From Candidatus Electrothrix scaldis (GTDB taxonomy: Bacteria > Desulfobacterota > Desulfobulbia > Desulfobulbales > Desulfobulbaceae), in the NCBI GenBank assembly GCA_033584155.1, contig CP138355.1:558001-622000 (forward strand): DNA of 64,000 bases, written 5' to 3'. Below the pieces are notes generated by a model. It was not told the DNA's origin, did not search any database, and saw only the letters and a list, made by a program, of their open reading frames with translations. Position 1 is the first letter of the stretch; the number at the start of each line of letters is the position of its first letter. Below, piece after piece: positions 3,603-60,405 of the stretch. A program made the position numbers and the translations under genes.

Positions 3603-5256
3603 ACTGATTCAGGCTGTATCCTTCCTTCTTCTCTGTTTTTTGATAACCAGCTGCACCCTGATCCAACTCAACAAGGACGTGAGCAAGAGTCTGGAGTCAA
3701 CCGTTATTACAGGTCGTGTCCGTGCTGATTCTCTCGAAACGGGGCCGATCATTGTTGCAGCCTGTTCAGTAGACAAGGAAAAAAAGATCGCCCATTATAC
3801 GGTACTCCACGAGCCCGGCGAATATGAGCTCATGGTCGGACAGGGAGAGTACTATGTGTTTGCCTTTCAGGACAAGAACAGCAACCTGATCTACGAGCAA
3901 GGTGAACTGGCAGGCCAGCATGGAAGCCCGCAAAAGGTGCAGGTCCCGGCTGTTGGTGTTGTCTTTGATATCGATATCGTCATCCCAGAACAGGGAGAGT
4001 CCATCGTCTTTCCCCAGGGCAAAGCAATCGCTTCGCCTCCCCCGCACAAGCTCTATAGTCGGCAGGCAGGGGCCATAGCGCAGTTGGATGACGAACGTTT
4101 TGCTCCAGAAAATGGTTCAAAGGGCTTTTGGGAGCCTTATGCATTTTTCAAAGAGTTTGGCGGTAATATATATTTTCTGGAGAAATACGATCCCACAAAA
4201 ATACCGGTTCTTTTTATCCACGGAGCAGCAGGAACCCCGGAGGGCTGGCAATATTTTGTCAATCATATGGATAGAACCCGCTTCCAGCCCTGGTTCTTCT
4301 ACTACCCCACCGGGGCCCGCATTGACAGCATCTCCTACCTCCTGCTCTGGAAACTTTCCAACCTCCAGGCCAAATATCAATTTAAAGAGATGTATATTAC
4401 GGCCCATAGTATGGGAGGGCTGGTTGCCAGATCCTTTCTGGTGAATTATGGGCTAAAATTTCCTTTGGTAAAGCTTTTTATTTCCTTAGCAACCCCTTGG
4501 GGAGGAGACAAGATGGCTGAATACGGGGTAGAACAATCTCCGGCAGTCATCCCAAGCTGGCGGGATATGCAGCCGGAGGGCAATTTTATCACCTCGCTGT
4601 ACAGAAAAAAAATGCCGGAACAGGTCCGCTTTTATATGTTTTATGGGCATCAAGGGACCAGAAACCCTTTCAGCTCCAATAATGACGGCACAATAGCCCT
4701 CTCCAGTCTTTTGGACTCAAGACCACAAGCTGAAGCCCAAATGAACTATGCCTTTAATGAGGACCATACCAGTATCATCTCCAGCAAGGAAGTGGTGGAG
4801 CAGTATAATACCATTCTTAACGAATTTGCAGAGCAGCAGAACAACTCCCCCCAACAATCCGCTGGATACCTGAAGGTCCAGGTATCCTATACTTATAAGA
4901 CAGAGGGTGCAATGCCCCATTCCCGACTCATACTCCGCCCTGCGGGAAGAGAAGGAGGGGAAATCGTCACCTTTCTCCAGGATGAGGAAAACAGTAAACT
5001 TCTCGGACCATTTCCGGCTGGGGACTATGTGGCAAACATGATTGTCGAGGCCGGAGCACCTCAGGAAAAGAACATCCCAATTTCCATCAAGAGTAAGACA
5101 ACAGAGGAACTGGATGTTACCTTCCACGCGGACGGGGAAATTCGCGGTTGCGTTACCTCTTCATTGAAAAAAGAAGAAAAAGTTATTGGAATGCCTGATT
5201 ATCTCTACCGTGCAGTTGACAAAAAAGTCAAAATACAGTCACTGAAAGGGTGTTGA
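3586..5256 (+). CDS. Alpha/beta-hydrolase (lipase-like) lipoprotein, C-terminus replaced by an insertion sequence
   Basis: An ATG at 3586 after GGGAGAAAAG gives a lipoprotein signal peptide with lipobox LITSC, so the protein is lipid-anchored; the longer frame from 3556 would bury it. Residues about 200-420 form an alpha/beta hydrolase: IPVLFIHGAAGT (oxyanion loop) and AHSMGGL with the nucleophile Ser, as in triacylglycerol lipases and palmitoyl thioesterase-like enzymes. An N-terminal domain and a C-terminal beta-rich region flank it. The sequence runs into an insertion element at 5246, so the last residues (KGC) are element-derived. Removing the element and one copy of ACTGA rejoins the frame to 7098-7342, restoring about 80 residues. 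The catalytic core is intact; whether the truncated protein works is unknown. Confidence 0.8.
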   Translation: MNFSFKLIQAVSFLLLCFLITSCTLIQLNKDVSKSLESTVITGRVRADSLETGPIIVAACSVDKEKKIAHYTVLHEPGEYELMVGQGEYYVFAFQDKNSNLIYEQGELAGQHGSPQKVQVPAVGVVFDIDIVIPEQGESIVFPQGKAIASPPPHKLYSRQAGAIAQLDDERFAPENGSKGFWEPYAFFKEFGGNIYFLEKYDPTKIPVLFIHGAAGTPEGWQYFVNHMDRTRFQPWFFYYPTGARIDSISYLLLWKLSNLQAKYQFKEMYITAHSMGGLVARSFLVNYGLKFPLVKLFISLATPWGGDKMAEYGVEQSPAVIPSWRDMQPEGNFITSLYRKKMPEQVRFYMFYGHQGTRNPFSSNNDGTIALSSLLDSRPQAEAQMNYAFNEDHTSIISSKEVVEQYNTILNEFAEQQNNSPQQSAGYLKVQVSYTYKTEGAMPHSRLILRPAGREGGEIVTFLQDEENSKLLGPFPAGDYVANMIVEAGAPQEKNIPISIKSKTTEELDVTFHADGEIRGCVTSSLKKEEKVIGMPDYLYRAVDKKVKIQSLKGC

Positions 5257-7092
5257 AAAGTAGTATTTTTATGAGTTAGTAAGGTTGTCCAGTAGCCGTA
5301 ATGATGGCTTTTTTTCGCTTTGAAACCTCCGAAGGAACTGTTCCGACCTGTTTTCCGGATTTAATCTATTGAGTTGAAACAATCAATAAAGATTCTTGGT
5401 ATTTTCAGGGCGTTATATCCTTGGAGCTTTGCAGCGTTTTGTGTGTAACTATTTGTTATTTCTATTACATCATGCTGCCTTACTGAACAGTTCAAGTTGT
5501 TGACTTTCATTCTTTGGTTTCTTTTTACGAAATCCGGCCATTTCAATAAGCAAGGTTGTTATCATGGTAAATGTCATCCTGCCGCACAGAGCATGTTGAC
5601 TGCGAACAACCGCATCTTCCAGGCATTCTCGTTTTTTCATGAGATTAAAAGGTCTTTCGCAATTTTTTTCGCATCTCGATTGCCTGTCGTGCCGCTTCGC
5701 TATCAACCGGCATCCTCTGAAAATGGGCGTCATCAAAAGCAATTAGACGAAACCGGGGACAAATTGCCGCGCGTGAACATTCACCGGCACCGGCTGCGCA
5801 TTTATATTCATGTCCTTCGTCCGTCAGGCCCATACGATTCATTGGAATTTCACAGAATTGATCACATTTCACATGGAGGCTCCCCGGCTCGACATGTTCC
5901 GGCAGGGGTGTATCGGCTGACACCGGCGTGATGAGATGGACTCCGGTGTCGGACAACAAATCCCCCTCTTTGTCATGATACGCCTGATCCGCGCTGATGA
6001 GTTTCATTTCAATACCAATTGCTTGCGCAAGTTCAACCAACGGCTTTAAGTACAGGCTGTCATGATGATTGGCCGGACCGAGCAGAGAAACAAGGGGATA
6101 ACTCAATCCTGTCGACGGGTTGATTGCCGTCAACGTATGCATACGATAACCTACTACATACGGGGACTTATCGCGCTTGTTGCGTCGAGCGCCGCAGTCG
6201 CAATCTATATCACTGTAGACCCGTACCTTTTTATCGCCGACTTTGATGCTGTACAGTGGGTACTGGTTATCATTGGCTATTTCAGTGGAATCAACTCCAT
6301 GCAGCACACTGTTCTCCAACAGACCGCTGCCATAGAAATGATGTAATATGTACACCAGAATATTCACAAGTTGAGAGAATTTCAAATCTCTGCGGAAATG
6401 ACAAAGCTCAGTATGATCAATAATTTCCTTGGTGTTGAGCGGTAACCCTAAAAATCTGCGATTCTCTTTACGTTCCTGCCCCATGTATTCCGAGCTGCAA
6501 AATTTACGGTAGCTTATCTCAGGGTATTTTATGGCTTTTAATAGTTCGGCACGAAAAAAGTTGGCATGGAAAGATGTCCCGCATTTGCGGTGAATAACCT
6601 TCGTTGGCTAATAACGCATTGATGATGCGATTATCAAGCAACTCGTCAATGAATCGAAGTTCCTCATTGTGAATCTCAGTCCATGATTTATGAGAGCGGG
6701 AAAATTTCAACAATCCGGCTTTTGTATAAAAATTATCTACAAAATCAGCCATATCCTGTAATGGTATAATCCGACTGTCAGGCTGTTGTTGCTCAATGCC
6801 GATCAGCTCCTCAATCGGTATGTCCAGTTCCTCATCAAACTCCTGATAATCTGCTGCCGCTGCATCCGTTATCTCTTTGGTGATTTTCTTTTTTTGCTTT
6901 CTGGAGAGACGCTGCCAATTCGGATGGTTCGATTTCAGCTGCTTCCTGATGATTCGTTTGATATCTTTCTCTTTCATAACGCCTCTCTTTGGTATCAATT
7001 TGTTTTTGTTGACTTTTATACCATTATAGAGGCTTTATATGTTTTAAGCAACTGTATTGATTTGTTTATTTTGCATTTTCTTCAACACCCTT
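5246..7092. mobile_element. Insertion sequence with 12-bp terminal inverted repeats and ACTGA target duplication
   Basis: The ends are AAGGGTGTTGAA (5246-5257) and its exact complement TTCAACACCCTT (7081-7092). ACTGA flanks both sides (5241-5245 and 7093-7097), a 5-bp target duplication. The 1847-bp element carries one DDE transposase gene on the minus strand, broken by frameshifts, plus about 220 bases without a gene at its left end. It interrupts the lipase-like lipoprotein gene. The family is IS4/IS5-like on the basis of a DDE fold only. Confidence 0.88.
5470..6998 (-). pseudogene. DDE transposase of the 5246-7092 element, frameshifted twice
   Basis: Three minus-strand frames make one transposase. 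The N-terminal piece (6998 to about 6556) ends at a T-run where skipping one T continues into RAELLKAIKYPEISYRKF and the second frame. The second frame (to about 5660) holds the catalytic Asp segments HGVDSTEIAN and LISADQAYH. The third piece, ending at 5470, has ERPFNLMKKRE, the expected site of the catalytic Glu. Because two breaks occur, both at homopolymer-like runs, the copy is probably inactive; sequencing error at the runs is the alternative. A start at MKEKDIKRI (6977) is also possible. Confidence 0.75.
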
Positions 7093-8561: not shown

Positions 8562-9302
8562 ATGCGTGTTCGTGTAACCCCTTATTTATTTGCCGCAACC
8601 TTTTTGCTTTTTTTCGCCAATCAAGGAGAGGTGTCTGGAGAAGAGATTTACAGATATATAGATAAATATGGGGTTGCCCATTATACCAATGTTCCGACTG
8701 ATGGTTACAAACCGGTTTCTCTTTCTCGTCTAGCCACACCACAGGAGGAAGGGATATCGTTTCGCACCCCAACTGTGCGGAGCGCAGATCGTAAGGACCT
8801 GAAACTCCATAGCGGGAGACATTGGAAATACACAAACAACACCAAATTTGACAAGCATATTCGGCATGCTGCCCGCGCCCATAAGGTAGACCCTCTGCTG
8901 ATTAAGGCAATTATTAAGACAGAGTCTGCCTTTAATCGTTATGCCGTTTCTCCAAAAGGAGCAAAAGGGCTCATGCAACTCATGCCAGCCACAGCAAAGG
9001 ATCTTAAAGTCAAAGACCCCTTTGATCCCCGGCAAAACATCTATGGCGGAACCAAGTACATAAAATGGCTACTGAAACGTTTTAACGGTGATCTACGCCT
9101 CAGCCTGGCGGCCTATAATGCGGGACCGGCACGAGTGAAAAAGAAAATTCCACGCATCCCGGAAACAATAGCCTATGTGAGCAAAGTTCTTCGCTATTAC
9201 AAGGCCTATAAGAAAGGGGGCAAAAAACGGCGAGCAGCATACCAACCAGCTATCGCCATGACCACCAGTATTCGTGTTCGAGAAATGGTAACGGTGAACT
9301 AA
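8562..9302 (+). CDS. Lytic transglycosylase with DUF4124 and SLT domains
   Basis: A signal peptide (residues 1-26) is followed by a DUF4124 segment (EIYRYIDKYGVAHYTNVP), a basic linker, and an SLT lysozyme-like domain from about residue 100. The catalytic Glu is in IIKTESAFNRYAVSPKGAKG, followed by LMQLMPATA, the classic family 1 motif, and the SLAAYNAGPARV segment. It cleaves peptidoglycan glycan strands in the periplasm to give 1,6-anhydro ends. It lies 14 bases after the transaldolase stop and may be cotranscribed. The length of 246 residues is typical. Confidence 0.9.
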   Translation: MRVRVTPYLFAATFLLFFANQGEVSGEEIYRYIDKYGVAHYTNVPTDGYKPVSLSRLATPQEEGISFRTPTVRSADRKDLKLHSGRHWKYTNNTKFDKHIRHAARAHKVDPLLIKAIIKTESAFNRYAVSPKGAKGLMQLMPATAKDLKVKDPFDPRQNIYGGTKYIKWLLKRFNGDLRLSLAAYNAGPARVKKKIPRIPETIAYVSKVLRYYKAYKKGGKKRRAAYQPAIAMTTSIRVREMVTVN

Positions 9303-9438
9303 CAACACAGCGACCTGTTTACTGAACCTCGAACTGACACCCACTTTCTGTGGGATTGAGAATAACCTCCCCACGTGATTTTCAAGTACGCTGTAAGCAA
9401 CGTAGGGTCTCACCCTCAAGCTGAGCTATTATACTTTC

Positions 9439-15072: not shown

Positions 15073-15293
15073 CCGATTTTCGATCAGGGAGCATAGTTTT
15101 TTCTATATGATATCATTGAGGGATGAAAATTTATGCAGTATGTCATACAGTACCTGCGGCAGGAGGAAAAGGGAAAAATCAAGGCCCCGTTCTTTCCCCC
15201 TGGCCGCCAAAATTATCCTCAAAGCATAAGGAGTTTGTGTGTAACGTGCAAGGCAGGACAACAGATATTGATGGTTCAGGCGATGGGCAGGCG

Positions 15294-15851
15294 ATGAAAA
15301 ACAGGGTGGGAGCGCAGCAGGCGCCGCCCGAGCGCATCGTTCTGACGGGATTTCGGGCCACAGGCAAGACCGCTGTGGGTCAGGCCCTGGCCCGCTTAAC
15401 CGGTTTTCGCTTTCTTGATACGGATCAAGAGCTCTGCCAGCGCATGGGCTGCTCCATTGCCGAAGCGGTCAGTGAACACGGTTGGCCATATTTTCGGGAA
15501 CAGGAGCGCACCCTGCTCAACGAACTGTCTTCCTGGCAGGAAACCATCATCGCCACCGGTGGCGGGGCTATTCTGCACCAAGATGCGTGGGAAGAGCTGC
15601 GCCGAGACGCCTTTGTGGTCTGGCTGCGCACGGATCTCGCTACGACCCTGGCTCGGCTGGATTTGGATCAGAGGACGGCTGCGCAACGCCCTGCCCTCAA
15701 CAAGCAGGAGGGAGCGCAAAACCCGGCGCAGGAGATCTCTGCCATCCTGGAGGAACGGGAGCCGCTCTATCGGGTTGGCTCCGATCTGGTCTTGGATACG
15801 GAGGGGAAAACGCCGGAGGAGTTGGCTCGGGAGATTTACGGGCGGCTTTGA
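15294..15851 (+). CDS. aroK: Shikimate kinase
   Basis: The P-loop GFRATGKT, the shikimate-binding FLDTDQ, and the ATGGGA motif identify a shikimate kinase, which phosphorylates shikimate in aromatic amino acid synthesis; the class II DAHP synthase at 57.3 kb begins the same pathway. A start at 15294 (MKNRVGAQQ) gives 185 residues, close to the usual 170-190. The frame is open to an ATG at 15123, but those extra 57 residues are unlike the family. The last 40 codons reappear, diverged, at 17582-17696, as discussed under findings, so this 3' end may be the newer copy. Confidence 0.9.
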   Translation: MKNRVGAQQAPPERIVLTGFRATGKTAVGQALARLTGFRFLDTDQELCQRMGCSIAEAVSEHGWPYFREQERTLLNELSSWQETIIATGGGAILHQDAWEELRRDAFVVWLRTDLATTLARLDLDQRTAAQRPALNKQEGAQNPAQEISAILEEREPLYRVGSDLVLDTEGKTPEELAREIYGRL

Positions 15852-15926
15852 AAAAGATGCTGTTATACAGAGGTTCGGCACGAACTAATCAACCTGACAT
15901 CAGAAAATAACAGAGTAAAGAGAACT

Positions 15927-17036
15927 ATGATAACAGAAATCTATATTGATAACTTTCGTTCTTTGACAAATTTTCGAATCAAACCAGGGGGATTTCAACT
16001 CTGGCTCGGAGAGAATGGGTCGGGCAAAACTTCTGTGCTGGATGCATTACGTAGCGTTCAACGATTGATGCGAGGCGAGCATGTGAACGATATCTTCAAC
16101 AGAAACAGCCTGACAACCTGGAATACAAGGCGTGAGCAGAGCATAGCATTTTCTCTGAAAGTAAACAATGAGGTATATAAGTACAGCTTGACGATTGAAT
16201 ATGCCGATCATGAAGAGAAGCAGCGTATTAAACGAGAACAACTCATCTGGAACGGTTCTCCCTTTTTCTTGTTCGAGGGGCAGGAGGCACATCTCTATCG
16301 TATCAACTGGAAGACAGAAAAACCGGAAGAGGGTGCTGTTTTTCCGGCGAATTGGGAACGATCAGTCATCCCTACAGTTGCTCAACATGATGATAATAAA
16401 CCATTAATCATGTTTAGAGAGGAATTGGAGAAGATTCTGCTGATTCATCCTGTTCCCTTACTTGTACAGGACGCAGCTGTTGCTGAGTCGCGTAACCTTT
16501 CTAAACATACTGAAAATTTTTCCCAGTGGTATCGTCATCTCCTGCAGGAAGAACCCGCTGTCAGTTATAAGGCAAAAGAACTTTTAGAGGACGTTCTCCC
16601 TGGGTTTGAACAGTTGAGCCTTAGAGAGGCGGGTGAATCACGAAAATTAACAGCAACATTCCGCATTGAAGATAAGGACTATGAGTTCTCCTTCTCAAAT
16701 ATTTCTGACGGGCAGCGGCAGTTGATTGTTCTCTACACGATTTTGGAGGCTCTGCGGGCCGGAATTTTTTCGACCGTGCTGATTGATGAGCCGGACAACT
16801 TTATTTCTATACGAGAAATTCAGCCTTGGCTTGAAAATCTTAACGATATCTGTGATGAACACGATAAACAGGCTATCATCACCTCTCATCATCCTGAAAT
16901 TATCAACAAGATGGCACGGGGAACAGAGCTTTGGTTCTCTCGTCAGGAAGGGGCGCATGTTGTTGTTGATCAGTTTCCTCAAGTAGCCGATCTGCCTCCG
17001 GCTGAGGTAATGGCTCGGGGATGGGAAAATGAGTAA
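15927..17036 (+). CDS. AAA family ATPase, RecF/OLD-like (AAA_15/AAA_21 type)
   Basis: This 369-residue ABC-like ATPase has the start MITEIYIDNFRSLTNFRI, Walker A GENGSGKTS, signature SFSNISDGQRQLI, and Walker B VLIDEPDNFI, then a switch His in AIITSHHPEI. It resembles the ATPase subunits of two-gene phage defence modules and OLD-family proteins. Its stop overlaps the start of the next gene by 8 bases, so the two are coupled. The pair sits directly after aroK and before a second copy of the aroK 3' end. The defence role is inferred from architecture only. Confidence 0.8.
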   Translation: MITEIYIDNFRSLTNFRIKPGGFQLWLGENGSGKTSVLDALRSVQRLMRGEHVNDIFNRNSLTTWNTRREQSIAFSLKVNNEVYKYSLTIEYADHEEKQRIKREQLIWNGSPFFLFEGQEAHLYRINWKTEKPEEGAVFPANWERSVIPTVAQHDDNKPLIMFREELEKILLIHPVPLLVQDAAVAESRNLSKHTENFSQWYRHLLQEEPAVSYKAKELLEDVLPGFEQLSLREAGESRKLTATFRIEDKDYEFSFSNISDGQRQLIVLYTILEALRAGIFSTVLIDEPDNFISIREIQPWLENLNDICDEHDKQAIITSHHPEIINKMARGTELWFSRQEGAHVVVDQFPQVADLPPAEVMARGWENE

Positions 17037-17580
17037 GGCATCGCAAATTATTATTCTCTGTGAAGACAGGGCCCATGAAATATTTGTAACCCGTTTCCTG
17101 AAAAAGGGGTGGGGTGTAAAACCTCGTACAATCAGAGTGGTTCCTTATCCAGGTGGTAAGGGATCAGGTAAAAGATTTGTGTTAGAAAAATTTCCTGAAG
17201 AAGCCAAAGCGTGTCGATCTCGACATGCCGCGACGATTCTATTGGTGATTCAGGATGCTGACGAGTTCTCTGTTGATCAGGTCAGGGCCGGGTTGGCAGC
17301 AAAACTTTTGCCACCGAGAGACGAAACAGAGCCGATAGCCTACATTATACCCAAGTGGCATATTGAGACCTGGATAGCGTACCTTGCAGGGGAGCTTATT
17401 AATGAGGAGGAAAAAAATATCTATAAAAATAATTATGGTGCTCTCTCGGAACGAAAGGATGCTCACCCCTTTATCGACAGCCTTGCGGATACGTGCAGAA
17501 AAAATATTGAGCTTGAATCACCACCTGACTCGCTGGTTGCGGCTTGTGAAGAATTCACTCGAATACGTCATCTGCTGTAA
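17029..17580 (+). CDS. TOPRIM-like / DUF4276-like partner of the ATPase
   Basis: This 183-residue protein begins ASQIIILCEDRAHEIFVTRFL, with an early acidic Glu, and continues with VIQDADEFSVDQV, giving the D-x-D pattern of TOPRIM folds. HIETWIAYL is a further conserved-looking motif of DUF4276/RloB-type proteins. These are metal-dependent nuclease-like folds that pair with AAA ATPases in defence islands. I did not see a complete family signature, so the family name is tentative. Its coding sequence overlaps the ATPase by 8 bases. Confidence 0.55.
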   Translation: MSKASQIIILCEDRAHEIFVTRFLKKGWGVKPRTIRVVPYPGGKGSGKRFVLEKFPEEAKACRSRHAATILLVIQDADEFSVDQVRAGLAAKLLPPRDETEPIAYIIPKWHIETWIAYLAGELINEEEKNIYKNNYGALSERKDAHPFIDSLADTCRKNIELESPPDSLVAACEEFTRIRHLL

Positions 17581-17581
17581 G

Positions 17582-17696
17582 CTCCCTGCTGGCGGAGCGG
17601 GAGCCGCTCTATCGGGCGGTTTCGGATCCGGCCTTGGATACGGAGGGGAAAACGCCGGAGGAGTTGGCCGAGGAGATTTACGGGAAGCTGCTTTGA
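17582..17696 (+). pseudogene. Second copy of the aroK 3' end
   Basis: This stretch translates as SLLAEREPLYRAVSDPALD then TEGKTPEELAEEIYGKLL and a stop. It matches the last 38 codons of aroK (EEREPLYRVGSDLVLD then TEGKTPEELAREIYGRL). The nucleotide match is strong around the TEGKTPEEL codons. It starts 2 bases after the stop of the TOPRIM-like gene and has no start codon. Confidence 0.85.
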
Positions 17697-17793
17697 TACT
17701 TTCCTGAACTATATTGTGTAGTTCTTTTACCTTTCTTCTTCTTTCCTTTGCTCTCTTTTCGACATGAAATGCCTTATTGCAGGCTTAAAACGT

Positions 17794-18035
17794 CACGTTT
17801 TACACTTCAAATGCCTCATATGAAGCTTCGAATGCCACGTTTTAAACTTCAAACGCCTCATGTGAAGCTTCGAATGCCTCGTTTCACGCTTCAAACGCCT
17901 CACTTGAAGCTTCGAATGCCTCGTTTTAAACTTCAAACGTCTCACATGAAGCTTCGAATGCCACGTTTTAAACTTCAAACGCCTCATTTGAAACATCGAA
18001 TGGGGCATTTTAAGCGTGAAATAGCTCGTTGAAAG
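17794..18035. repeat. 21-bp tandem repeat array, 11 units plus a partial
   Basis: Units alternate between two forms, for example CACGTTTTAAACTTCAAACG and CTCATGTGAAGCTTCGAATG (plus one base), each 21 bp, from 17794 to 18024, with a partial at 18025. The units contain TTTAAA or GAAGCTTC palindromes. Because 21 is a multiple of 3, both strands stay open (94 and 71 codons) with a heptad-like repeat (MPRFKLQ/TPHMKLR), but I see no start signal or family, so I treat it as non-coding. Confidence 0.85.
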
Positions 18036-18171
18036 TGTTGGATGTGGTATTGTAACCTGCCAACGGGGTGTTTCTTGCTGCTGCCGTTGAGATAATCAAA
18101 CCGGCCCAGGACAACCCTGCTTTGTAATCCGCATCACTGCGTACTTTTAAAACGGCGTGTGATACTGATGG

Positions 18172-18280
18172 AAGTACATTTTTTCATTGTAACAGTTACT
18201 TTATCATTGTTTTGTAAACTTCCATGTTATCAATGAATAACTGTTGATATCCTGGAAAAATAAAAAAGAAATCAATAAAC
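18172..18280. repeat. Intergenic repeat copy 1, upstream of the 18404 gene
   Basis: The stretch running from GTACATTTTTTCATTGTAAC to AAGAAATCAATAAACTGG matches, with gaps, the segment 20104-20253 in the same orientation. Both lie directly before a gene. A perfect hairpin (AACTGGAAA loop TTTCCAGTT) follows at 18278-18299 and a perfect TTATCCACA DnaA-box-like word at 18370. Confidence 0.5.
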
Positions 18281-18403
18281 TGGAAATATTTTTCCAGTTT
18301 TCTCGCTTAATACGTAATAACCTGAAAAATTGGTCAATATACTGGGTAATACCCTGTCCTGATTCCAGGTTATCCACACTGTTATGTCTCATAAGGAGAT
18401 CCC

Positions 18404-20276: not shown

Positions 20277-21407
20277 ATGAGCACTGATGCTCTGCTGTTA
20301 ATACTTTACGTCCTGCTGGCACTCCTGTTTTCATTTCTTTGTTCAGTAGCAGAGTCAGTACTCCTCAGCATTACCCCTTCCTATATCGAAGGGCAGAAAG
20401 AAAAACGGCCTCAGTATGCAGCACTCTTGAAACAACTGAGACTGGATAATGTGGACCGATCACTTGCGGCCATTTTAACGCTCAACACTATTGCCCATAC
20501 GGTTGGTGCCATCGGTTCTGGTTCCAAGGCGACAGTCGTCTTTGGAAGCGCATGGTTTGGCGTATTTTCAGCTGTCATGACGCTTTTAATCCTTTTTCTT
20601 TCCGAAATCGTGCCGAAAACTTTAGGCACCGTCTACTGGGCACAACTTGCAGGTCCAACTTCGTATCTTGTCAACACGCTGATTGTGGTCCTTTATCCAC
20701 TGGTATGGATTTCGGAAAAGCTGACAAAGTCTATTTCACATGGAAAGGATATCCACATTTTCAGTAGAGACGAATTCATCGCTATGGCTCGGATAGGTGT
20801 AAAGACGGGCCAAATTCGTGATAAGGAATCAAGGATTATCCGCAATATATTCCGGTTCGAGTCGCTCAAAGTGAATGATATTATGACGCCACGTGCTGTC
20901 ATCACTGCATTACCCGAGGACATGAAAATTATCGACTCAATGGAACAAGTCACCCAGACCCCTTTTTCACGTCTCCCGCTCTATGTTACGCATATTGACA
21001 ACATAACGGGTTTTCTTCTGAAAGAGGATGTTCTGATTAACGCGGCCCAGAAACAAAACGACAAAGAACTCAATGCACTGAAGCGTGAAATACTTTTTGT
21101 CCCTGAATCGATTTCCCTGGTCGTTTTGTTAGAACGCTTTCTTAAGGAGCGCCAGCACATTGCTATAGTCGTCGATGAGCATGGAGGAACGGATGGCCTG
21201 GTAACCCTGGAGGATCTCATCGAGACACTTATGGGCATGGAAATTATGGATGAAACAGACGATGTTGAAGACATGCGTTCTCTGGCGAGAAAGCAATGGA
21301 AGGATCGCGCAAAGGCCCTAGGGATTGATGCTGATATCGTTGATAAAAGAAAGAGCGAACAGGCTCATTCAGCTGACACAAAAGGCCGTGCGGCTGATGG
21401 GCAATGA
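20277..21407 (+). CDS. CNNM/HlyC-type transporter (DUF21 plus CBS pair)
   Basis: At 376 residues it has an N-terminal DUF21 domain with four hydrophobic helices (residues 1-170), and a CBS-pair region with VNDIMTPRAVITALPED and IAIVVDEHGGTDGLVTLEDLIETLMG, ending shortly after. The usual C-terminal CorC_HlyC domain is missing. Such proteins export or regulate Mg2+ or Co2+ or act in membrane ion balance. The stop overlaps the start of the next small gene by 4 bases. Confidence 0.88.
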   Translation: MSTDALLLILYVLLALLFSFLCSVAESVLLSITPSYIEGQKEKRPQYAALLKQLRLDNVDRSLAAILTLNTIAHTVGAIGSGSKATVVFGSAWFGVFSAVMTLLILFLSEIVPKTLGTVYWAQLAGPTSYLVNTLIVVLYPLVWISEKLTKSISHGKDIHIFSRDEFIAMARIGVKTGQIRDKESRIIRNIFRFESLKVNDIMTPRAVITALPEDMKIIDSMEQVTQTPFSRLPLYVTHIDNITGFLLKEDVLINAAQKQNDKELNALKREILFVPESISLVVLLERFLKERQHIAIVVDEHGGTDGLVTLEDLIETLMGMEIMDETDDVEDMRSLARKQWKDRAKALGIDADIVDKRKSEQAHSADTKGRAADGQ

Positions 21408-44869: not shown

Positions 44870-47800
44870 ATGAAAACACAGGAGAGGATTTATCCCCTCT
44901 TAATTGGGCTGCTTATTGTACTCACCGTTGTGCAGGTGCAGGCGGCAGAGATTGCCGTGGATGGTAGCACCTGCACCTTGGCCGATGCCATTACGGCGGC
45001 CAATACTAATGGCAATGCAGGCGGATGCACCGGTAGCGGGTCGTATGGAGATGATACCATCACTCTGACGAACGATATTAATCTTACGGCTGCACTGCCT
45101 GAGGTTACCACCACTATTATCATTGAGGGGCAGGAACATACTATTGACGGTAATGATACCTACCGAGTGTTGTACGTCGAGAGCAGCGGTAACCTGACCC
45201 TGAATGCCACCACAATTACCGGCGGGAAAACGACAGAAAACGGTGGCGGTATTTACAATAAAGGCCGTCTCACCCTAACCGATTCCACGGTCGACGGCAA
45301 CACAGCAAACTGGGGAGGAGGTATTTATAACAACCTAGGAACAGTGACATTGACCAACTCTACAGTCAGCGAGAACACAGCAACAGCTCACGGTGGCGGC
45401 ATTTACAGCTCACAAGGCGGCCTCATCTTGACGAACTCTATAGTCAGTGGCAACACAGCAACGTTTAGCAGTGGTGGCATAGGTAGTAACTTGACAACTG
45501 TCACCGTAACCTATTCCACGATTAGGGGTAACATGGCACAACAAGCTGGTGGTATTGCTAACGAGGATGGAAGCTTTACTCTTACAGGTTCCACGGTCAG
45601 TAACAATACAGCTGAAAACATTGGCGGAATTTCAAACGTGGATGGCAGCCTCACCCTGATGAACTCGACAGTCAGTGGCAATACAGCAACGGCTCACGTT
45701 GTTGGTGGCATTTATAACTTCCAAATTAACAGCGACTCAACAGTCACTCTTATCAACTCTACAGTCAGTGACAATAAAGCTGAAGAAAACGTTGGCGGCA
45801 TTTATAATTACGATGGCACAGTCACACTGACCAGCTCATTAATCAGCGGTAATATAGCCCTCGGTTTAGTGAATGAACTTGCTAATGACAACATGGGCAG
45901 CATCGATGCCGATAGTCATAATGTCTTCGGCCATAATGCCGAGACTAATACCGATGCATTCCTCAATTTTACTCCCGGCGACAGCGATGTTAATGCCACC
46001 AGCGATGGCACTAATACTCCTCTTGCCTCCATCCTTGACACGACCCTAGCCGATAACGACGGCCCGACCCAGACCCACGCCCTGGTTGCAGGTAGCCCTG
46101 CCATTGATCTGGATATATCATGTAACGGAGGCTTGATCATTGATGACCAACGAGGCTATAGCCGCCCTGCTGGCTCAGGCTGCGATGCAGGGGCTTTTGA
46201 ATACGGTGCCATTCTTATTGTTGATACAGACAACGATGGTGTAGCAGACGATATTGACAACTGCCCACTCACAGCTAATCCTGACCAGATAGACACAGAC
46301 GAGGACGGTATAGGTGATGCCTGCGATGTATGCCCTGATGGCGATGATAAGGTCGACACTGACGCGGATGGCGTACCCGATGCTTGCGATAACTGTCTAG
46401 AAGTTAGTAATCCCACACAGGCTGATAATGACGGTGATAATATTGGTGACGCTTGTGATATCTGTCAAAATGGCCCTGACAACATAGATACTGATCATGA
46501 TGGCATACCCGATGCCTGCGATATCTGTCCTGATGGCGACGATAAGGTCGATACTGACGCAGATGGCGTACCCGATACGTGCGATAACTGTCTAGCTGTT
46601 AGCAATCCTACACAAGAGGATAATGACGGCGATAATATTGGTAACGCTTGTGATATCTGTCAAAGCGGACCTGATAACATAGATATCGATAATGATGGCG
46701 TACCCGATGCCTGCGATGTATGCCCTGATGGCGATGATAAGGTCGACACTGACGCGGATGGCGTACCCGATGCTTGCGATAACTGTCTAGCTGTTAGCAA
46801 TCCTACACAAGAGGATAATGACGGCGATAATATTGGTAACGCTTGTGATATCTGTCAAAGCGGACCTGATAACATAGATATCGATAATGATGGCGTACCC
46901 GATGCCTGCGATGTATGCCCTGATGGCGATGATAAGGTCGATACTGACGCGGATGGCGTACCCGATACGTGCGATAACTGTCTAGAAGTTAGTAATCCCA
47001 CACAGGCTGATAATGACGGTGATAATATTGGTGACGCTTGTGATATATGTCAAAATGGCCCTGACAACATAGATACTGATCATGATGGCATACCCGATGC
47101 CTGCGATATCTGTCCTGATGGCGATGATAAGGTCGATACTGACGCGGATGGCGTACCCGATACGTGCGATAACTGTCTAGCTGTTAGCAATCCTACACAA
47201 GAGGATAATGACGGCGATAATATTGGTAACGCTTGTGATATCTGTCAAAGCGGACCTGATAACATAGATATCGATAATGATGGCATACCCGATGCCTGCG
47301 ATATCTGTCCTGATGGCGACGATAAGGTCGATACTGACGCGGATGGCGTACCCGATACGTGCGATAACTGTCTAGCTGTTAGCAATCCTACACAAAAGGA
47401 TAATGACGGTGATAATATTGGTGACGCCTGTGATATATGTCAAAGCGGACCTGATAACGTAGACACTGATTATGATGGTGTTCCAGATGCCTGCGATATC
47501 TGCCCAGATGGCGATGATAAGGTCGATACCGACGGTGATGGCGTACCCGATACGTGCGATAACTGTCTAGCTGTTAGCAATCCTACACAAGAGGATAATG
47601 ACAGCGATAATATTGGCGACGCTTGTGATATCTGTCAGAACGGGCCTGATAACCTAGATTTCGATAACGATGGCGTCCCAGATGCCTGCGATGTTTGTCT
47701 GGATGGCGATGATAAAGTCGATACCGACGCGGATGGGATTCCCGATGCTTGTGATAATTGTCTAGAAGTTAGCAACCCCACTCAAGCTGATAATGACGGT

Positions 47801-48055
47801 GACAATATCGGTGACGCTTGTGATATATGTCAGAACGGGCCTGATAACCTAGATTTCGATAATGATGGCGTCCCAAATGCCTGCGATATTTGTCTGGATG
47901 GCGATGATAATATAGATACTGACGCTGATGGGGTTCCTGATTCTTGCGATATCTGCCCGAACGGGCCTGATAACGTGGACACCGATAATAATGGCGTACC
48001 TGATGCCTGTGAACGAAATATAATCCTTACTCCGATTTATCAGTTACTTTTGTAA
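44870..48055 (+). CDS. Exported beta-helix and thrombospondin type 3 repeat protein
   Basis: A signal peptide (PLLIGLLIVLTVVQVQA) leads to a parallel beta-helix region (residues about 30-370) with many N-S-T-V-S-x-N-T-A turns, a choice-of-anchor Q segment (ALVAGSPAIDLD through DDQRGYSRPAGSGCDAGAFEY), and from about residue 485 a calcium-binding thrombospondin type 3 array of D-x-D-x-D-G-x-x-D-x-C units. The array is eight 65-residue units plus a partial. The C-terminus is RNIILTPIYQLLL. It is probably a surface adhesin, with the repeats as a Ca2+-stiffened stalk. A terminator follows. Confidence 0.9.
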   Translation: MKTQERIYPLLIGLLIVLTVVQVQAAEIAVDGSTCTLADAITAANTNGNAGGCTGSGSYGDDTITLTNDINLTAALPEVTTTIIIEGQEHTIDGNDTYRVLYVESSGNLTLNATTITGGKTTENGGGIYNKGRLTLTDSTVDGNTANWGGGIYNNLGTVTLTNSTVSENTATAHGGGIYSSQGGLILTNSIVSGNTATFSSGGIGSNLTTVTVTYSTIRGNMAQQAGGIANEDGSFTLTGSTVSNNTAENIGGISNVDGSLTLMNSTVSGNTATAHVVGGIYNFQINSDSTVTLINSTVSDNKAEENVGGIYNYDGTVTLTSSLISGNIALGLVNELANDNMGSIDADSHNVFGHNAETNTDAFLNFTPGDSDVNATSDGTNTPLASILDTTLADNDGPTQTHALVAGSPAIDLDISCNGGLIIDDQRGYSRPAGSGCDAGAFEYGAILIVDTDNDGVADDIDNCPLTANPDQIDTDEDGIGDACDVCPDGDDKVDTDADGVPDACDNCLEVSNPTQADNDGDNIGDACDICQNGPDNIDTDHDGIPDACDICPDGDDKVDTDADGVPDTCDNCLAVSNPTQEDNDGDNIGNACDICQSGPDNIDIDNDGVPDACDVCPDGDDKVDTDADGVPDACDNCLAVSNPTQEDNDGDNIGNACDICQSGPDNIDIDNDGVPDACDVCPDGDDKVDTDADGVPDTCDNCLEVSNPTQADNDGDNIGDACDICQNGPDNIDTDHDGIPDACDICPDGDDKVDTDADGVPDTCDNCLAVSNPTQEDNDGDNIGNACDICQSGPDNIDIDNDGIPDACDICPDGDDKVDTDADGVPDTCDNCLAVSNPTQKDNDGDNIGDACDICQSGPDNVDTDYDGVPDACDICPDGDDKVDTDGDGVPDTCDNCLAVSNPTQEDNDSDNIGDACDICQNGPDNLDFDNDGVPDACDVCLDGDDKVDTDADGIPDACDNCLEVSNPTQADNDGDNIGDACDICQNGPDNLDFDNDGVPNACDICLDGDDNIDTDADGVPDSCDICPNGPDNVDTDNNGVPDACERNIILTPIYQLLL
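46325..47884 (+). repeat. Eight tandem 195-bp coding repeats
   Basis: Each 195-bp unit encodes 65 residues of thrombospondin type 3 motifs (CPDGDDKVDTDADGVPD and on). Several units are almost identical in DNA, including silent sites, and only a few codons vary. This implies recent unequal exchange. Confidence 0.9.
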
Positions 48056-48317: not shown

Positions 48318-48565
48318 ATGCACGATACACTCCAAGAACTGAAGACCCGCCTGCAAGAGATCAACGACCTGGGCATGGCAGCCAGCCTGCTCAACTGGGA
48401 CCAATCCACCTACACTACATGCCCCCTGAAGGAACTGCTGCCCGTGCTCGCCAGCTGGCAACCCTGGCCCGTCTCTCGCAGGAGAAGTTTGTTGATCCTG
48501 CCATCGGCAGATTGCTTGATCAGCTGGAGCCCTGGGCCGAGGAGCAGCCCGATGATGCCAGCCTG
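48318..48565 (+). pseudogene. N-terminal scrap of an M32-type carboxypeptidase
   Basis: The frame from 48318 starts MHDTLQELKTRLQEINDLGM then AASLLNWDQSTY, like the start of M32 metallocarboxypeptidases. A few extra bases near 48417 shift it, and another frame continues RQLATLARLSQEKFVDPAIG to WAEEQPDDASL at about 48563. There the match to beta-helix sequence begins, so the active-site HExxH region is lost. Confidence 0.7.
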
Positions 48566-48873
48566 AATCCTCAATAATCTTGTGATCAGAGAACGCGCTG
48601 TCGGGAATGGCTTAATGAACGGGGGCGTGAGTATTGTGGAGGATAATCGTGTTGACCAGACCGGCTCTGTGGGAATAGCCGTTAATAGCAGCACGGTCCT
48701 GAGGTTGAACCGTAATCAGATAAGCAAAACAGGCTCTCCAGGTATTGTTCTTGTCTTCGGCTCAAAGGTGCATGAGATGAAAGACAATACCATGACTAAT
48801 ACTCGTGGACCCAAGCTGGTCGTTGAGGAGAGCGAGATTTATTCACGCTAACAGCGGCGTATCTCTAATGTAA
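48563..48873 (+). pseudogene. Duplicated 3' end of the beta-helix lipoprotein gene
   Basis: This matches, in inverted orientation and with few changes, 58754-59062 of the gene at 58777-60147. It encodes LMNGGVSIVEDNRVDQTGSV and the same C-terminal SEIYSR stop, and the match runs about 20 bases past the stop. It joins the M32 scrap at a TGCCAG...GAATCC microhomology. Confidence 0.85.
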
Positions 48874-58776: not shown

Positions 58777-60147
58777 TTAGCGTGAATAAATCTCGCTCTC
58801 CTCAACGACCAGCTTGGGTCCACGAGTATTAGTCATGGTATTGTCTTTCATTTCATGCACCTTTGAGCCGAAGACAAGAACAATACCTGGAGAACCAGTT
58901 TTGCTTATCTGATTACGGTTCAGCCTCAGGACCGTGCTGCTATTAATGGCTATTCCCACAGAGCCGGTCTGGTCAACACGATTATCCTCCACAATACTCA
59001 CGCCCCCATTCATTAAGCCAATTCCGACAGCGTGTTCTCTGATCACAAGATTATTGAGGATTCTGACTGGCAGCTCTGCTGAACCGGCTGCTTCATTTCC
59101 TATGCCCGGTTTATTCTTGCCATTGCTGAAGACGATATTCTGCGCAATCAGAGGAGCGGTCGGCTTATCTATCTGATATTTTCCCTGAGGCTCACCTCTC
59201 CCGGTCAGGATACCTCCACCAGGATTATCATGCACTATATTGCCGAGAATGTTAGGCGCTGCGCCGTGTTTCGTGCCAATGCCTGGTGAGGGGCTTCCGG
59301 TAAGTTCCGAATCATCGTTGCCAAAAATTTCATTGCCCAAGACCCAGGGGGTGGAAAAATGATTACACCCGATGCCTAAACCAAAATTGTCCTTGATAAT
59401 ATTATGATAAAGTACAGCGGAAGATCTGGTGTTGATGTTCTGCCAACGGAAATCCCGGGTAGGCATAGGCTGTTTTTGGTCCTTAAAAAAGACGTGATTG
59501 CCGATTCCTGTGGAACCATTTTTGCGGATAAGACAGTTCATAACCACGGCACTTGCTCCTCTCATGTTGATAGCATGGGCATGACCAGCATTGTGGTGGT
59601 TCTGTTTGGGCATATTTTGGATGGTAAAGCCATCAATGATGCTTGTCGGACCAATTCCCTCGCTGAAATCAAACATCCCGTGATGGGATGGGGAGGATTT
59701 AGAGCCATCAATAACCGTCCGCAGGGTTCTACGGGGCAGCTGCAAGAGCGCTTGATCAACGGGAACGAATGTATTGCCATCGTTGGAGGCATCTGAAATA
59801 AGCTTCACCCCGTCCTTCATGACTAGCTGTTCGTAATAGATCCCTTCCTTAACAATCACGGAATCCCCCGTTGTTGCGGCATTGATAGCCGACTGAATGG
59901 TCTTGTACTGTGTGGGAACGAGTAGTTTTCTCCCCTTATCATGAAAATGTAAATCCATCAGGCTCAGGGCTTTCTCGTGGGCCACCTGGAGATTGTGTTG
60001 TACGACTTGATCAAAATACTCCTGGGTAACAGGTTTGGGAGCTTGAGGAGAGCTTGCTTCTGCGTATTGTGACTGGCAGGACGTGTTGAGAAAGAGTGAG
60101 AAGAGGGTACAGAACAGGATGAGATGCTTTGTTTTTTTTGATGGCAT
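58777..60147 (-). CDS. Beta-helix lipoprotein (DUF1565-like)
   Basis: From ATG at 60147 (MPSKKTKHLILF) a lipoprotein signal with lipobox LNTSCQSQ precedes a short helical part, then a DUF1565-type opening (TQYKTIQSAINAATTGDSVIV, VKEGIYYEQL) and a right-handed beta-helix of about 300 residues with repeated N-x-I/V-x-x-N turns (IIKDNFGLGIGCNHF, LGNIVHDNPGGGI). It is likely a surface carbohydrate-binding or lyase-like protein. Its 3' third is duplicated at 48563-48873. Confidence 0.85.
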   Translation of the reverse strand: MPSKKTKHLILFCTLFSLFLNTSCQSQYAEASSPQAPKPVTQEYFDQVVQHNLQVAHEKALSLMDLHFHDKGRKLLVPTQYKTIQSAINAATTGDSVIVKEGIYYEQLVMKDGVKLISDASNDGNTFVPVDQALLQLPRRTLRTVIDGSKSSPSHHGMFDFSEGIGPTSIIDGFTIQNMPKQNHHNAGHAHAINMRGASAVVMNCLIRKNGSTGIGNHVFFKDQKQPMPTRDFRWQNINTRSSAVLYHNIIKDNFGLGIGCNHFSTPWVLGNEIFGNDDSELTGSPSPGIGTKHGAAPNILGNIVHDNPGGGILTGRGEPQGKYQIDKPTAPLIAQNIVFSNGKNKPGIGNEAAGSAELPVRILNNLVIREHAVGIGLMNGGVSIVEDNRVDQTGSVGIAINSSTVLRLNRNQISKTGSPGIVLVFGSKVHEMKDNTMTNTRGPKLVVEESEIYSR

Positions 60148-60405
60148 AATGAATAGTTTTATTTTTGAAAGGCGTTTAGCTTTTGTCCATTTTATATACA
60201 CTTACAATAAATCAATAAGGTGTGCCAGCTTATGCGACCTCCTTATTCCTTTTCTATACAATCTTACTGGATGTATTTCGCCTCCGACTCATTTTTTTTG
60301 ATTGTCATGAATTTCCTCAATATCCTCCTTGGAAATGGCATGTAAAAAATTGTATAATAAACAAGGAGGGTATATTTTTTTATACTTTCGAAAAAGGAGG
60401 GAGAG

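Follow-up and report, generated by a model that had tools for sequence, protein, structure and literature searches.

An ATPase/Toprim gene pair lies between two copies of the aroK 3' end in Candidatus Electrothrix scaldis

Two overlapping genes, one for an ATPase and one for a Toprim-like protein, lie in Candidatus Electrothrix scaldis between a complete aroK and a second copy of the aroK 3' end. The pair was inserted at this gene end, and the copy on its far side is the displaced original end of aroK. How it came there is a matter of probability, and I tentatively favour, at just short of an even chance, an insertion without an integrase in which about 105 bp at the breakpoint were duplicated and aroK stayed whole, followed by homologous exchange and loss.

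Within the window, by which I mean the whole 64,000-nucleotide stretch analysed here (its genome, G000, is one contig of 5.09 Mb), the order is rmuC on the minus strand and then, on the plus strand, aroK, the ATPase gene, the Toprim gene, the second aroK 3' end and a 42-bp tandem array. The functional aroK (shikimate kinase; 15123-15851) matches PF01202 (SKI, E 8.2e-39) over residues 78-239, and its own 3' end is the upstream repeat copy. A spacer of 75 bases (15852-15926) runs from its stop to the start of the ATPase gene, and a consensus scan of 15100-18300 listed no promoter-like site on the plus strand. The ATPase (15927-17036) is an ABC/SMC-type protein of the AAA_21/OLD kind (PF13304, E 2.1e-17), and the stand-alone Toprim-like protein (17029-17580) has 183 residues; the two reading frames overlap by 8 bases, in agreement with the preliminary description, which had seen the inserted unit as two overlapping genes. 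The array (17794-18002; five copies, 88% match) lies behind the native aroK end here and in a relative, G003. Similar tandem repeats form a large block at 46280-48012 within a 1061-aa ORF (44870-48055). Elsewhere in the window, a stretch like the 3' part of a beta-helix-like gene occurs at 48558-48839 and 58777-60201, about 10 kb apart and in opposite orientation, and short dispersed direct repeats stand on either side of a CNNM/CBS gene at 20277-21407 (pairs 19172-19253/21401-21483, 19999-20045/21467-21514 and 20042-20084/21542-21585). The names talA, aroF, aroC and 'beta-helix' used here were assigned by eye from translations.

The last 105 bases of aroK (15747-15851) recur at 17589-17696 (blastn, 92/108 identical including one 3-base gap, E 1e-31). 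The downstream copy lacks the rest of the gene and is in frame from 17583, 2 bases past the Toprim stop, giving 37 residues and a stop; the 38 aroK codons that had been reported to recur there are thus borne out. At E 0.001 the repeat query has two matches in the whole genome, both of them these copies, and the flanks score 122 bits against each other versus at most 28.3 bits in 83 cross-locus flank pairings. The two ends differ in type: the upstream one (GRL-stop) is of the ancestral type, whereas the downstream copy (GKLL-stop) and G003 share a derived end that is 3 bases longer. Upstream and downstream copies are 88-91% identical. Between G000 and its close relative G005, the downstream copies differ 2, 5 and 1 times at codon positions 1, 2 and 3, without the third-position bias expected of a constrained gene, although only 8 differences are involved.

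Eight genomes of the genus were compared, seven of which carry an aroK of this type (G002 has only distant kinases). An unrooted tree of rpoB and alaS from six genomes groups G000 with G005, G001 with G002, and G003 with G007; single-gene identities place G004 (rpoB) and G006 (alaS) with G003 and G007. The pair stands behind aroK in G000, G005 and G001, that is, in three of the seven, and a single unbroken aroK end is found in G003, G006 and G007. The G005 locus is the same as the window's. The window's downstream copy and array align with the G003 aroK end and the sequence after it over 467 bp (86.9%), the collinearity starting with the downstream copy and continuing about 360 bp past it. The unbroken G003 gene thus continues into the same sequence that comes after the downstream copy here, which identifies this copy as the original aroK end, now displaced. 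This locus is the pair-free, unbroken relative that the earlier proposal of an insertion at the aroK 3' end had called for, and it upholds that proposal, with the qualification that the G003 site, which has one repeat copy only, may have arisen by loss.

In G001, which belongs to another clade, the left junction of the pair is the same, and so, recognisably, is the spacer between aroK and the ATPase gene. Its Toprim gene ends after about 61 codons, running into the last bases of the downstream end and then the array; the locus spans two contigs, whose join I infer. G003 holds the pair at a second site, beside a beta-helix-like gene; there the Toprim gene breaks off at about codon 99, and a second aroK end is missing. 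A pair of this kind, without the second end, is among the cases that the preliminary description had named as refuting its proposal, and in G001 only the last bases of that end are kept. Since the Toprim gene is truncated in two of the four copies in the genus (G001 and G003), the pair is dispensable. Relatives of the 42-bp array occur in several places in G000, G005, G003 and G001, with no matches in G002, G004, G006 and G007 at E 0.001; the array-bearing genomes are the same four of the eight that hold the Toprim gene.

The pair and its insertion are old in the genus, because its ATPase identities (77.9% for G000-G001, 81.7% for G000-G003) resemble those of rpoB and alaS (79.7-81.5%). Homologous exchange at a later time can be seen as well. 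G000 and G005 are without a single difference over 2,104 bases (15266-17369), from the start part of aroK to about codon 114 of the Toprim gene; the next longest such run is 778 in 45,130 aligned bases of 96.3% overall identity (run lengths from HSPs over 500 bp). Homologous exchange of the aroK-pair segment, or replacement of its flanks, explains this tract, in a direction that cannot be told; on both accounts, the recent history of aroK is also that of the pair. In G003 the nearest relative switches near 14.5 kb of the window, from G004/G007 before to mostly G000/G005 through aroK, the groups being tied around 15.0-15.15 kb. This switch shows that the aroK segment of G003 was imported from a G000-like lineage, and that lineage probably once had the pair, because G001 shares the insertion. 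At 15751 the G003 end resembles the upstream copy, and at 15827, the 3-base insert and 15847 it resembles the downstream one, a mosaic such as a crossover between the repeats would leave, with one derived site on its 5' side. The pair-free G003 allele is thus best read, with weak support, as a loss of the pair by recombination between the repeats.

Displaced aroK ends were also found without the pair. A search with an AroK C-terminal profile gave short orphan ends below E 1e-6 in 4/73 genomes of the family (G000, G005, G016 and G004), which I read as three events. In G004 (L039, 10559-18386) a talA-rmuC-aroK block is inverted between aroF and the beta-helix-like gene, which are neighbours in the window. 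Beyond the block lies a decayed, inverted aroK end (95-column match, 77%), adjoining the beta-helix-like gene that directly follows aroK in G007. I read this arrangement as an inversion with an aroK end on both breakpoints. G016, from another genus, has an orphan end followed by an ORF and aroC, the order found behind the intact aroK of G026; the overlap of the orphan spans 75 bp, with 85% identity. Its functional aroK is still beside rmuC, on another contig, with a novel tail, and this is an independent displacement (the case involves L052, reverse strand, about 9274-9360, and L053, 8708-9280). No integrase was seen by eye among the ORFs of at least 130 and at least 110 aa in parts of L053 and L052. 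A weak orphan candidate in G026 (C7, 7560-7652) has an E value of 0.057 and one stop inside. The duplication seems to be a property of breaks at the aroK end and not of the pair. It is possible, though I think it doubtful as a whole, that the aroK 3' end is a family-wide, recurrent point of docking and breakage, where foreign or moved DNA joins with a tail duplication of 75-110 bp, the function of the gene survives integrase-free entry and clean exit, and immunity modules find a reversible, recombination-only insertion site; the orphan-end count behind the word 'recurrent' covers aroK alone.

Flanking repeats are uncommon where the pair occurs elsewhere. The rule that the pair always makes flanking duplications was rejected, as direct repeats over 40 bits occur in only eight of 83 loci (the window, G005, L125, L068, L061, L088, L123 and L096) and the other 75 of those tested have none. 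From their ORFs, I read L061 and L096 as transposase-type copies and L123 as a degenerate dispersed fragment. Among the controls, 0/83 cross-locus pairings exceeded 28.3 bits, and 2/133 within-locus and 0/83 inverted comparisons exceeded 40 bits. The Fisher test gives p 0.029 for 7/82 versus 2/133, and p 0.069 for 4/79 versus 1/130, counts entered by hand once L061, L096 and L123 and the L061 control placements are dropped. The only clean analogue of the aroK case is L068, a Candidatus Electryonea contig, where a 221-bp direct repeat (90%; 4193-4413 and 6607-6827) flanks the pair; the repeat is the 3' end of a 217-aa ORF, with a copy about 45 bp behind the Toprim stop.

Under the favoured reading, an integrase-free rearrangement would have inserted the pair at the aroK 3' end, with about 105 bp from the breakpoint present afterwards on each side of the insert. 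The upstream half would have kept a complete aroK, the other tail copy staying behind the insert beside the DNA that originally followed the gene, and such a tail duplication would allow the end of an important gene to tolerate an insertion. Later, aroK and the direct repeats would have served as ordinary homology: close relatives would have exchanged the segment of aroK and pair, and recombination between the repeats could remove the pair cleanly, as proposed above for the allele now in G003. Several observations speak against a duplication at the breakpoint. The RL and KLL ends are not expected of a fresh duplicate, and because they differ in type the model requires that the downstream copy changed afterwards or that the upstream end was imported. 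The identity of the two copies is higher than would be expected of a repeat older than the split of G000 and G001, unless gene conversion intervened, and flanking repeats are missing at most other pair loci (75/83). The difference between the ends also makes homology-facilitated illegitimate recombination the strongest rival, one I consider possible if on balance unlikely. Here, a linear donor carrying a linked aroK end and the pair would have paired with the recipient aroK on the left and been joined without homology on the right; the functional aroK end would be donor DNA and the recipient's last codons would be left behind. An ancestral, non-KLL upstream end beside a derived downstream end shared with G003 speaks for this model, and the single recent tract of aroK and pair does so as well. 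The process has been described experimentally (PMC3240628, in the part available), and the accessible text of PMC5361080 gives the same explanation for downstream-shifted orphan ends at Vibrio T6SS and Rhs loci. However, the downstream copy lacks at 15751 the G003-like state that a remnant of the recipient should have, the model presupposes a donor that already had the pair behind aroK, and in G016 the functional aroK gained a novel tail, not a replacement end.

A site-specific integrative element, using an attachment site in the aroK 3' end and carrying a replacement end, its integrase since lost, would account for the architecture of a rebuilt 3' end and a displaced native one. A direct repeat of a gene end flanking the insert is the likeness to known elements at gene 3' ends, and the mosaic at 15751 and 15827-15847 would also suit a reciprocal crossover. 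Unlike such elements, the locus has no integrase at hand: the window has no match to PF00589, as the preliminary description had noted for integrases, and none appears among the Pfam matches of the 15 window ORFs around the pair. The genome-wide recombinase search, made with PF00589 (tyrosine recombinases) alone, gave eight matches, the closest of them 1.15 Mb away, or about 0.7 Mb on a circular contig. Nor does the cargo follow the site: aroK is beside the pair in none of 79 pair loci outside the genus (flanks up to 6 kb; an eightieth, L122, is G001's own second contig, its aroK lying on another, and was excluded), and G003 has the pair elsewhere. Looked for behind other aroK genes, as the preliminary description had advised, the pair stands there, among the loci compared, in three genomes of this genus. 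A search of 72,556 plasmid and 50,697 phage records gave no match to the Toprim protein at E 0.01. At E 1e-10 the ATPase has three plasmid matches, of 24.5-25.7% identity, and none among phages; aroK has no plasmid match at E 1e-20, and among the matches listed by a literature search aroK does not appear as an integration site. With no tyrosine recombinase near and a cargo that does not keep to the site outside the genus, this is the least favoured of the three insertion models, and an improbable one; the ends displaced without the pair in G004 and G016 likewise tell against the dedicated integrative element first proposed. Still less probable, and very unlikely in my estimate, is a degenerate tandem duplication of aroK into which the pair fell later. 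A second aroK could have decayed to such a lone 3' fragment, but the match begins no more than 10 bases from the Toprim stop, nothing else in the genome matches it, and the single aroK of G003 joins the same downstream DNA directly.

The pair itself is a widespread split OLD-type ATPase/Toprim module. Toprim relatives numbered 228 in one scan of genome contigs, and among the best 80, which were kept, an ATPase gene lies directly upstream on the same strand in 79. In the phylum it is sporadic and accessory, as the Toprim gene occurs in 6/395 genomes at E 1e-10, the window's included (eight match at E 0.001). Against PADLOC, the window ATPase matches HEC-01A (E 6.2e-27), PDC-M25A (E 3.8e-25), AbiLi (E 8.2e-24) and AriA (E 1.5e-21). 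A first AlphaFold model of the Toprim protein from 6 sequences (pLDDT 66.3, no PDB match at E 0.001) was replaced by one from an 81-sequence alignment (pLDDT 92.3). It is nearest to OLD nucleases (6p74, Z 8.7, rmsd 3.8 over 136 residues; 6nk8, Z 8.0) and PH0156 (2p62, Z 8.2), scores that are modestly above those of unrelated folds such as lumazine synthases (Z 6-7). The best Foldseek match is also an OLD protein (E 3.5e-3), and the sequence profile found no PDB relative below E 0.1. E12 is invariant and D76 and D78 are present in at least 90% of the 81 sequences, a conserved E and DxD. Some of the 81 members weakly match the Pfam families DUF3226 (14), DUF4276 (9) and RloB (3), which I take to be Toprim-like themselves; a literature search found no paper on DUF3226. 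In PADLOC, members match HEC-01B (24/81, one model), PDC-M38B, mad4 and AbiLii; the Toprim protein of the window itself matches nothing in PADLOC at E 0.1.

By kinship, a role of the pair in defence against phages is likely; the ATPase would sense or gate and the Toprim nuclease would cut, as in split OLD systems. The neighbour scan covered 131 of the 136 nearest ORFs of the pair (five long ones left out; those below 150 aa and above 900 aa dropped). The first 25 of 105 Pfam families were ordinary metabolic, transport and regulatory ones together with AAA ATPases, and at E 1e-15 PADLOC gave mad3 in nine, AriA in up to four, and PglZ and PglX in two each. These counts, taken at pair loci alone, do not decide for or against a defence-island context.

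Among known systems, PARIS (AriA/AriB), a proposed class 4 OLD system, also has its ATPase and Toprim as adjacent, separate genes (PMC10568477 and PMC12796447, available sections). The likeness extends to the OLD-type model of the window Toprim and to the AriA match of the ATPase, although the latter scores better with HEC-01A, PDC-M25A and AbiLi, and the 24 PADLOC families to which the 81 Toprim members show matches at E 0.01 include no Ari model. HEC-01, a PADLOC candidate system, gives the best ATPase match, and up to 24 of the Toprim relatives weakly match one HEC-01B model (best E 4.1e-6; 1.1e-6 over all HEC-01B), but not the window's own Toprim. Overall, the pair is analogous to PARIS and distantly resembles HEC-01. 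As for the mode of insertion, Nobusato et al. reportedly described in 2000 an insertion of restriction-modification genes with a long target duplication. Such immunity-type gene sets, flanked by a long host direct repeat, are also linked to inversions and translocations in the available parts of PMC3031569 and PMC4978471. The aroK locus resembles them in its small immunity-type gene set between long host direct repeats, and in a repeat that is single in pair-free G003, whose allele may be a loss product. It differs in that the genes are not restriction-modification genes, the copies differ in type (RL versus KLL) and what is repeated is the end of a biosynthetic gene. At T6SS effector and Rhs loci, according to the accessible text of PMC5361080, an incoming module likewise leaves old gene ends downstream as orphans; there it replaces the effector end and keeps old immunity genes, whereas here the aroK product is nearly unchanged.

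The locus draws attention to a widespread ATPase/Toprim pair; in the form found in the window, its Toprim subunit has no family match in the four libraries scanned. It offers a natural case, visible in several relatives, of a small integrase-less module of immunity type that sits behind a biosynthetic gene and shares the recombination history of that gene. From this position behind aroK, the pair can probably be lost again without a scar.
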